A DNA stretch of 64,000 nucleotides from Gammaproteobacteria bacterium (lineage in GTDB: Bacteria > Pseudomonadota > Gammaproteobacteria > Steroidobacterales > GCA-2729495): assembly GCA_015709695.1 (NCBI GenBank), contig CP054183.1, forward strand, positions 2,902,992-2,966,991, written 5' to 3'. The translations under genes and the position numbers were made by a program. The notes under the pieces are model-generated. The model did no database searches. It was not told the origin of the DNA and was given only the letters and a program-made list of their open reading frames with translations. Shown here one piece after another: positions 30,157-31,976 of this stretch. How positions within the stretch are numbered: the stretch's first letter is position 1; each line of letters starts with the position of its first letter.

Positions 30157-30202
30157 GCAGAAGCGCGCGATGGACGCGCAGATCGACGAGCAGGGCCGCT
30201 AG
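29972..30202 (+). CDS. Small lipoprotein
   Basis: A 76-residue predicted lipoprotein: signal peptide with lipobox LAAC (cysteine about residue 19), then a charged, helical, Gln/Glu-rich region (SVEQIEAEQKRAMDAQ). The start has GGGGAGG 6 nt upstream, and codon third positions are almost all G/C, which supports real coding although the first 185 bp overlap the run-on end of the Atl frame. Its stop overlaps the glk stop by 4 bp (convergent). Confidence 0.72.
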   Translation: MMNMAWGILLAATLVLAACGGPSADQDATPAAREAPAENRQLLDAVQAPLERAKSVEQIEAEQKRAMDAQIDEQGR

Positions 30203-31143
30203 CCGGCCGGCTTGGGGCGCGCATCCCTGGCGAGGGCGACAAGGCCCTTGAGCGCGGGATAGGGGTCGACGATCACCCAGGCGGGGATGGCCCGCAGGTA
30301 ATCGCGGTAGCGACCCTTGGCCTCGAAGCGCTCGCGGAACGGCGAGCGCAGGAAGGCGTCGAGGTAGCGGGGCACGATGCCGCCGCCGATGTAGACGCCG
30401 CCGAAGGCACCCAGCGTGAGCGCGACGTTGGCCGCCATGCCGCCGAGCAGGCCGAAGAACATCGACAGCGTCTCGGCGGCATCGCGTTCGCCGGCGGCGA
30501 AGCGCGCGCCGATCGCCTCCGGCGTCAGCGGTGTCCCGCCGTGCAGGGTTTCGTGCAGGAACGCCAGGCCATGGCCGGACAGCAGGCGCTCGGCCGAGCA
30601 ATGCCCGTAGCGCTGGCGAGCGGCGCGCAGGATGACTTCCTCCCGGTCGTCGGCGGCGCCCAGCGTGGCATGACCGCCTTCGCCCGGAAGCGTGAGCCAG
30701 CCACTGCCGATGGGCAGCAGGCCGGCCACGCCGAGGCCGGTGCCCGGACCGATGGCGATGCGTGGGGCCGTCGCCACGGCCGTGCCGCCGCCTGCGGCGA
30801 CCAGATCTGCGGCGCCGAGTTCGGGCAGCGAGCGGGCCAGGGCGGAGAAGTCATTGGCGACCAGCAGCTCGTCCAGGACCAGCGCCTGGCGCAGCCCGGC
30901 GCGCGAAAAGTGCCAGTCGATGTTCGACATGCGCACCTCGTCACCGCGGATCGGGGCGGCCACCGACAGGGCACCGGCCCGCGGCCGCTCTGCCGCAGGC
31001 TGGGTAGCGAGATAGTGCCCGAGGAGGCTGCCCAGATCCGGGAAGCCGGCATTGCGGAATGCCGTGACCGGGCCGATGCCCGCGCCGGATGCCAGCGCGA
31101 CGCGGGTGTTGGTGCCACCGATATCCGCCACCAGCAGGGACAT
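30199..31143 (-). CDS. glk: Glucokinase
   Basis: A 314-residue ROK-independent glucokinase (E. coli Glk type), phosphorylating glucose with ATP. LVADIGGTNTRVAL (phosphate-binding), MSNIDWHFS, LLVANDFSALARSLP with the catalytic Asp, IGPGTGLGVAGLLP, and GGVYIGGGIVPRYLDAF are all present. The upstream region holds a terminator and a putative small RNA on the same strand, so glk expression may depend on its own promoter or on read-through. Confidence 0.95.
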   Translation of the reverse strand: MSLLVADIGGTNTRVALASGAGIGPVTAFRNAGFPDLGSLLGHYLATQPAAERPRAGALSVAAPIRGDEVRMSNIDWHFSRAGLRQALVLDELLVANDFSALARSLPELGAADLVAAGGGTAVATAPRIAIGPGTGLGVAGLLPIGSGWLTLPGEGGHATLGAADDREEVILRAARQRYGHCSAERLLSGHGLAFLHETLHGGTPLTPEAIGARFAAGERDAAETLSMFFGLLGGMAANVALTLGAFGGVYIGGGIVPRYLDAFLRSPFRERFEAKGRYRDYLRAIPAWVIVDPYPALKGLVALARDARPKPAG

Positions 31144-31177
31144 GCCGACAGTCTACGCAGCGGGCTTTCCGCGAGGC

Positions 31178-31203
31178 AAAAAAAACCGCCCCGTGGGGGG
31201 CGG
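31178..31203 (-). terminator. Rho-independent terminator of the putative small RNA
   Basis: On the minus strand a 7-bp stem CCGCCCC/GGGGCGG is followed directly by eight T. It lies 35 bp upstream of the glk start and in the same direction, so it must end a transcript that begins further upstream. Confidence 0.92.
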
Positions 31204-31350
31204 TAGGGATGGGCGCGGAAATTGTCGGTCTTGTTCTTCTTCTTGTTGTGCGGCCTGTTTCTTCTTGTTCTTGTCAGGCCTCGGGTTGTGCGTTGTGTTG
31301 TCTGCGTTGCGTTGGGGTTGTGTGCGAGAGCAATGGCTGTCTTGCGTCTC
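31178..31350 (-). ncRNA. Putative sigma-54-dependent Hfq/Crc-type small RNA
   Basis: A predicted minus-strand transcript of about 173 nt between a -24/-12 promoter and a strong terminator, with no convincing reading frame. It contains A-rich repeats of the AAN type: one at 31258-31275 (AACAAGAAGAAA and neighbours) and another at 31231-31250 (AACAAGAAGAAGAACAAG). The first sits in the loop of a 6-bp stem (GGCCTG/CAGGCC, 31252-31280). Such motifs bind the distal face of Hfq and resemble the catabolite-activity motifs of CrcZ-type RNAs in Pseudomonas, which are also RpoN-dependent. Function is inferred, not shown. Confidence 0.6.
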
Positions 31351-31361
31351 GGGGATATCAA

Positions 31362-31377
31362 TGCACCCCACGTGCCA
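31362..31377 (-). promoter_or_regulatory. Sigma-54 (-24/-12) promoter for the small RNA
   Basis: On the minus strand TGGCAC-N5-GTGCA matches the RpoN consensus except for one base; the essential GG and GC pairs are 10 bp apart. Transcription should begin near 31350. Confidence 0.65.
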
Positions 31378-31386
31378 GGCATGCCG

Positions 31387-31418
31387 CCGGCGTCTCGCGA
31401 CTTGACCTAAGACGCCGG
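31387..31418. promoter_or_regulatory. Inverted repeat upstream of the -24/-12 promoter
   Basis: Perfect 9-bp arms CCGGCGTCT/AGACGCCGG separated by 14 bp, centred about 52 bp upstream of the predicted transcription start. It could be a binding site for an enhancer-binding protein. The rest of the gap to 31673 shows no gene that I can support. Confidence 0.45.
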
Positions 31419-31673
31419 TGCACGGCCGTTGTGTGAGCGGGATCACCCATTTCGGCCTCGCCGCTGCCCGCTCCGGCCTGCCGGTGCCCGGGCGATCCGG
31501 CGTGAGCCGTGGCAGTTGTCAGGACAGCCGACAGGCCGGGCCAGGCGAGGCGGCGACCGGCATCACGGATTATCCTGGAATGGCTTTCGAATCAGCAGCT
31601 TGGGCATGAAGCCCTGCTGTCAAGCTCACCGACGCTGCGGCGGTCGGCGGCACCGGGGAAGTGCCGGATTGGC

Positions 31674-31892
31674 TCAGGCGTTGAGGTCGGGAATCAGCTG
31701 GCTCTCCAGCTTGCTGATCATGTCCTTCAGCCGCAGTTTCTGCTTCTTGAGGCGGCTGACGCGCAGCTGGTCGGCGTGCGGGTTCCTGGCAAGTTCCGCG
31801 ATCGCGACGTCGAGATCGCGGTGCTGGACACGCAACTCCTTGAGGCGGACGCGGTTTTCGAAAGTGCCTGTATCGACGTTGGTGGTGCTCAT
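31674..31892 (-). CDS. DUF465 (YdcH-like) protein
   Basis: A 72-residue highly charged helical protein of the YdcH/DUF465 family: LKELRVQHRDLDVAIAEL near the N-terminus, then DQLRVSRLKKQKLRLKD and a C-terminal LESQLIPDLNA. Function is not known; family members are small coiled-coil cytoplasmic proteins. The ATG at 31892 fits the family start. It lies 84 bp upstream of cysQ on the opposite side of a gap and in the same direction as the small RNA. Confidence 0.88.
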   Translation of the reverse strand: MSTTNVDTGTFENRVRLKELRVQHRDLDVAIAELARNPHADQLRVSRLKKQKLRLKDMISKLESQLIPDLNA

Positions 31893-31976
31893 CACGCTCT
31901 TCGCCCGAGCCCCCTGATCCTGCCCCGGCACGCTTCTCGTTGTTGCTCCGTGCGCGCCGCGTTGGAGGCCCATATT

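Follow-up and report, generated by a model that had tools for sequence, protein, structure and literature searches.

The window, that is, the whole 64-kb stretch of DNA analysed here, contains a gene-free gap (31144-31673) between a glucokinase-like gene (30199..31143) and a small DUF465-like ORF (31674..31973); these genes and all window features given below are on the minus strand. We take the downstream gene to be glk, following the preliminary description of this locus and the MSLLVADIGGTNTR start, and the upstream ORF is presumably a member of the DUF465 family. All the parts that had been described in the gap were found there on the minus strand and, as judged from promoter, terminator, fold and homologues, they make up a real, conserved, free-standing small-RNA gene. 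The predicted RNA, referred to as type 1, is about 174 nt long (31178..31351) and non-coding; its start was placed at about 31351 from the position of the sigma-54 promoter (31362-31377), and its end was derived from the terminator. The transcript folds more stably than shuffled sequences (z = −3.1). There is no reading frame common to the homologues: the frames of the A-rich arrays in the RNA differ irregularly among them and seldom include a start codon inside the transcript.

The upstream neighbours, cysQ and the DUF465-like ORF, are constant among the genomes with this RNA; the downstream glk is not conserved as such and is replaced by an otsB-like gene or by other genes in other genera (the names cysQ, otsB-like and glk were read by eye from the translations). 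The connection with carbon metabolism that had been drawn from the adjacency of glucokinase is not borne out by this comparison and, because the adjacency is not conserved, only the CRP-type site and analogy now point to a link with carbon supply. The same comparison bears on the possibility that the RNA is an untranslated 5' leader of glk, in which the terminator would act as an attenuator and tune glucokinase. Such a leader would fit the short distance, only about 35 nt, from the end of the terminator to the glk start, but the RNA is kept where the next gene is otsB-like or another one, and a −10-like word stands ahead of most downstream starts. In the window, this hexamer is TAGACT (31150..31155), just before the glk start. 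Most homologues that have an adjacent gene show TANNNT-like words at the same place ahead of glk or otsB, which suggests a separate promoter for glk. We also identified no antiterminator by which glk could be freed, and regard a leader function as very improbable.

Promoter and upstream elements

The −24/−12 promoter of the preliminary description is present as TGGCACGTGGGGTGCA (31362..31377), and its TGGCA and TGCA are invariant, at the same spacing, in 27 homologues. In the whole genome, the pattern TGGCAYN6TGCW has 46 sites, compared to 19 for the reversed control pattern. Clusters of AANAANAA words occur within about 250 nt downstream of only two of these 46 sigma-54-like sites, with seven words each, the count being zero for the other 44. 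The two AAN-bearing sites are the window locus and G000:C1:3073946.

Upstream of the promoter, two conserved elements, GTGA-N6-TCAC and TTNTGTCAAA (the latter also written CTTNTGTCAAA), are located at fixed spacing. Nearly all readable members show the same geometry, namely GTGA-N6-TCAC, 21 bp, CTTNTGTCAAA, 23 bp, TGGCACG-N5-TGCA. Within CTTNTGTCAAA, the TT, GT and AA are invariant or nearly so in the 27 homologues. The window version, CTTAGGTCAAG (31401..31411, about −60 to −50), departs from the conserved form at two places and is a candidate activator site. The more distal element is a CRP-type palindrome, GTGATCCCGCTCAC in the window (31433..31446), with its centre at about −88. The distance from the centre of the palindrome to TTNTGT is 32 bp, the same as in class II CRP promoters, and because this spacing fits, we considered such a promoter at the pair of elements; that TTNTGT makes a poor −10 counts against it.

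The 9-bp inverted repeat reported previously (31387..31418), with the arms CCGGCGTCT (31418-31410) and AGACGCCGG (31395-31387), is indeed exact, but it is not conserved past the nearest relative (L003), in which the arms are changed. The repeats found upstream in other members differ in position and sequence. As the repeat is kept in the nearest relative only and complementarity around its symmetry axis is near background over the 27 homologues, we rejected it as an operator.

Conserved parts of the RNA and their distribution

Both AAN blocks of the preliminary description were located. Array 1, AAGAACAAGAAGAA (31259..31272), is displayed in the loop of a hairpin formed by the 5' arm GGCCTG (31275..31280) and the 3' arm CAGGCC (31252..31257), and array 2, AACAAGAAGAAGAACAA (31231..31247), is single-stranded. 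The word AANAANAANAANAA occurs three times in the 64 kb, every time within the arrays of this transcript (0.00 expected), and words of this type number 69 in 21 homologues, compared to 1.5 in dinucleotide shuffles. Column identity is 95% for AA and 62% for N in array 1, and 86% and 43%, respectively, in array 2; all four letters occur as the third base of the triplets. AA thus appears to be under selection while the third base drifts, as would be expected for ARN binding by the distal face of Hfq. The arms of the array-1 hairpin show paired changes among members: counted by script across 27 members, a stem of 5-7 bp encloses array 1 in 13, with positions changed yet paired (variants GGCCTG, GCCCG, GCCTGC, TGCCCG and ACCTGAT). 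RNAalifold, applied to alignment A1, missed this hairpin because the stems are offset by one base between members. In some other genera, the arrays are on other hairpins or on none.

The period of three is also what a short gene for a Lys/Asn-rich peptide would produce, the AAN triplets being codons for Lys or Asn. Such a gene is most improbable, however: within the transcript, the frames of the arrays mostly lack a start codon, the two arrays are not separated by a constant multiple of 3 among homologues, and the third base takes all four letters.

The strong terminator that had been claimed is present at 31204-31178. This intrinsic terminator (31178..31204), ACCGCCCC-CCAC-GGGGCGGT followed by eight U in the RNA, has its stem at 31204-31185, and the stem is kept by paired changes, such as CCGCCTC/GAGGCGG and CCGCCCT/AGGGCGG in homologues. 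Rfam matches to Hrs1 in the terminator region were far below threshold and were rejected.

The terminator is preceded by a C-rich box, UCCGCGCCCAUCC (31207..31219), which is single-stranded, nearly invariant over very divergent homologues, and possibly a base-pairing seed. Because of this near-invariance, the main rival to the Hfq decoy that we favour is a trans-acting class II sRNA, in which the arrays would anchor the molecule on the distal face of Hfq and UCCGCGCCCAUCC would pair with G-rich, SD-like stretches of mRNAs. Binding to two sites on Hfq does not keep class II sRNAs, for example MgrR, from base-pairing with their targets (PMC6239178), and a terminator with eight U is usual for Hfq sRNAs. 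Our RNA resembles those of enterics (ChiX, MgrR) in its ARN motifs, U-rich 3' end and possible seed, but differs from them in the sigma-54 promoter, in the longer and repeated arrays, and in being without a known target. Furthermore, at least two arrays per RNA, together with a second RNA that has three or four, suggest a supply of binding sites, and part of the box is also able to pair with the 3' arm of the terminator, so that its conservation may be structural. On balance, a base-pairing sRNA appears possible but rather doubtful as the explanation; the decoy and base-pairing roles could also coexist.

With respect to distribution, 25 of 60 relatives were matched in a DNA search; of the weakest matches, some reflect chance similarity to the terminator. 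R1, a covariance model for the 3' portion of the type 1 RNA, recovered members outside its training set at E-values of 1e-6 to 1e-12, which are rough, as the model is home-made. In an order-wide search, R1 matched 31 of the 40 genomes of the window's GTDB family; one of these matches (G019) is the locus of a second RNA, type 2, so that about 30 of the 40 carry type 1. In the relatives, in which a covariance search had been proposed by the preliminary description, promoter, arrays and terminator are conserved together. Among 369 genomes sampled from the class, R1 had no convincing match in other families, its two matches both belonging to the window's family. A type 1 copy was undetected in genus g7 of the family and in some further members. 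Among named genomes, a terminator-based pattern scan gave 120 rows, mostly chance GC-rich matches, of which only L082 (MAG Gammaproteobacteria J054) and L134 (MAG KLAP199) are true members. We rejected one weak order-level match of R1 (L190), which seems to be the end of a PEP-CTERM gene.

Trans-acting factors and comparison with known RNAs

The genome encodes both rpoN and hfq, on which the preliminary description depended, as well as a CRP/Vfr-like regulator; the Hfq core is closest to that of other gammaproteobacteria, including Pseudomonas. Hfq is the predicted binding partner of the RNA and no Crc-type partner was found in the genome, which would leave room for a decoy that holds another A-rich RNA binder. 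Nevertheless, the strict AAN periodicity fits the tripartite A-R-N pocket of Hfq, a protein that this genome encodes with its core conserved; a target other than Hfq accordingly seems quite unlikely.

We found eight clear sigma-54 activators: NtrC, NtrX, PilR, one of the FlrC type, PrsR, one of the NorR type, and two orphans. NtrC and PrsR scored above curated cut-offs; the other names come from neighbours and domain make-up, read by eye (a pilin gene by PilR, a fliF-like gene by the FlrC type, a nitrite reductase-like gene by the NorR type). None of these eight is a response regulator that could still be CbrB, so the earlier suggestion of CbrB control could not be upheld. The PrsR at L030 (G000:C1:823834-827331), a PEP-CTERM-box response regulator, exceeded its cut-off with 714 bits, which indicates that the genome has a PEP-CTERM/exosortase system. 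Crc is an exonuclease-like protein without catalytic residues. Its closest relative here scored 305 bits to the exonuclease PDB 2jc5 versus 232 bits to Crc (4f1r), and keeps the GDWN and SDH that are replaced in Crc. Thus, no Crc partner was found in this genome, the nearest protein being an apparently intact exonuclease.

The best-studied point of comparison is CrcZ of P. aeruginosa, an RpoN- and CbrB-dependent RNA of 407 nt with six A-rich stretches, which titrates Hfq via the distal face, shown to be necessary for binding; one Hfq hexamer per A-rich stretch has been proposed (PMC4063720). The CbrAB-CrcZ system has been described for Pseudomonadaceae only (PMC8871633). In the literature that we found, descriptions of Hfq titration by a dedicated sigma-54 RNA come from Pseudomonas and Azotobacter, and there the titration is CbrAB- and Crc-dependent. 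Like CrcZ, CrcY and CrcX of Pseudomonadaceae, the type 1 RNA has a predicted sigma-54 promoter and several AANAANAA A-rich motifs, and Hfq is encoded in the genome; also as in several species with these RNAs, more than one such RNA is present per genome, for which the CrcZ/CrcY pairs are a precedent (PMC4063720, PMC8871633). Unlike CrcZ, it is about 174 rather than 407 nt long, with two arrays rather than six, and has different neighbours (glk, DUF465), not being located downstream of cbrB, in a genome where no CbrB-type activator or Crc was found. Further differences are the nearly invariant C-rich box and the two elements at fixed spacing, TTNTGTCAAA and the CRP-type site.

At the gathering score, no match to the CrcZ family (Rfam RF01675) was found in the window, contrary to the homology that had been suggested, and in 18 loci of type 1 and its relatives this model had no match up to E = 5. 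Two related RNAs of another family gave sub-threshold matches (E = 0.015 and 0.24, with 24 and 20 of 95 bits). We therefore classify the RNA as CrcZ-like in its working and not as a member of the family, because the promoter and motif class and the two-RNA arrangement are common to both, whereas the sequence, the activator and Crc are not. Thus, of the original proposal of a distant counterpart or a convergent Hfq decoy, the functional part persists as the best reading, backed by the second AAN RNA, but membership in the CrcZ family is not demonstrable.

CsrB and RsmZ are protein-sequestering RNAs with repeated binding motifs in loops and a dedicated regulator for their transcription. The type 1 RNA would be similar in principle, but its motifs are AAN, not GGA, and the proposed target is Hfq, not CsrA.

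Putative Hfq decoys in this genome and in the order

The other AAN-bearing sigma-54 site of the genome, outside the window, belongs to the predicted type 2 RNA (G000:C1:3073696-3073946, minus strand; L246:7697-7947), which measures some 250 nt when counted from its promoter box. Type 2 was detected in 32 of the 40 genomes of the family and in 25 of the 28 high-quality ones, a few matches being short and partial. Every full member examined has three or four AAN arrays (three at L246), along with long invariant blocks and a long-range stem in which several pairs are kept via changes on both sides. The RNA has no Rfam family, and we found no publication on either type 1 or type 2 in the open-access literature. 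In the window's genome, type 2 adjoins an ABC transporter gene. Further downstream is a cobalamin riboswitch (L246:6614-6843, minus strand, 92 bits), and type 2 at L027 likewise has one downstream of it.

Taking these lines of evidence together, we consider it fairly probable that the type 1 RNA is an Hfq decoy, a free-standing sRNA working like CrcZ and CrcY. The sequences themselves show the features, their conservation and the absence of a common reading frame; from these we infer that the gene is transcribed, that a sigma-54 activator and a physiological signal govern it, that the RNA binds Hfq, and that titration is its main function. Under this model, the activator would switch the gene on, probably with the input of a CRP-type protein at GTGA-N6-TCAC. 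The RNA would then offer two AAN arrays, each of about the length that would occupy most of the distal face of one Hfq, and, when abundant, would hold Hfq, such that A-rich mRNAs otherwise repressed by Hfq would be released, as is the case with CrcZ and CrcY. The longer type 2 of this genome, with its three or four arrays, shares this building principle. In favour of a decoy, promoter, arrays and terminator are conserved as a set, and neighbouring families again have such arrays, there on different scaffolds. Against it, two arrays per molecule are few for a sponge when compared to the six of CrcZ, the UCCGCGCCCAUCC box shows more conservation than a pure sponge would need, neither CbrB nor Crc was found in the genome, and g7 and some other members appear to be without a type 1 copy.

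A pattern search for a sigma-54 box followed by AAN words matched 35 of 296 genomes of the order, and the reversed control had none among the matches listed. Outside the window's family, f7 contributes about 21 matched genomes and family f4 a single one; two other matches (L282, L283) are inside coding genes and were rejected. The f7 RNA (L284, L286, L290, L295 and others) is a conserved sigma-54 AAN RNA that contains the blocks CCCAAGCGAAGTGTAACTGC and GACGCCAGAAGA. The type 2 model matched f7 RNAs at E-values down to 1e-5 over the full model length, which is suggestive only of homology because the loci were picked for the promoter, which adds to the score; the f7 RNA is possibly a distant relative of type 2.

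A conserved RNA with two rows of AAN triplets, together with a second RNA of this design in its genome, implies that bacteria remote from Pseudomonas may control Hfq by decoys without Cbr and Crc. Whether sigma-54-driven Hfq decoys are more than a Pseudomonas invention, existing across the order as unrelated or barely related RNAs with AAN arrays on different scaffolds, under activators other than CbrB and without Crc, is a proposition for which we see roughly even chances. If it is correct, the core of the mechanism would consist of sigma-54, AAN arrays and Hfq, with CbrB and Crc dispensable. Two RNA families absent from Rfam would be added, and one could test in other gammaproteobacteria whether nutrient status acts on global translation control by the route presumed here.

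Some further loci can be mentioned. At L187 and L188 (family f16) and L270 (family f4), AAN-rich RNAs of different sequence precede strong terminators, with a sigma-54-like promoter seen at L187 and L270. Finally, in the window's genome, L247 (G000:C1:2269717, plus strand) has a sigma-54-like promoter that follows the palindrome TTGTTTGTAAACACAA and is oriented divergently from the gene of a PAS-PAS sigma-54 activator (L028).
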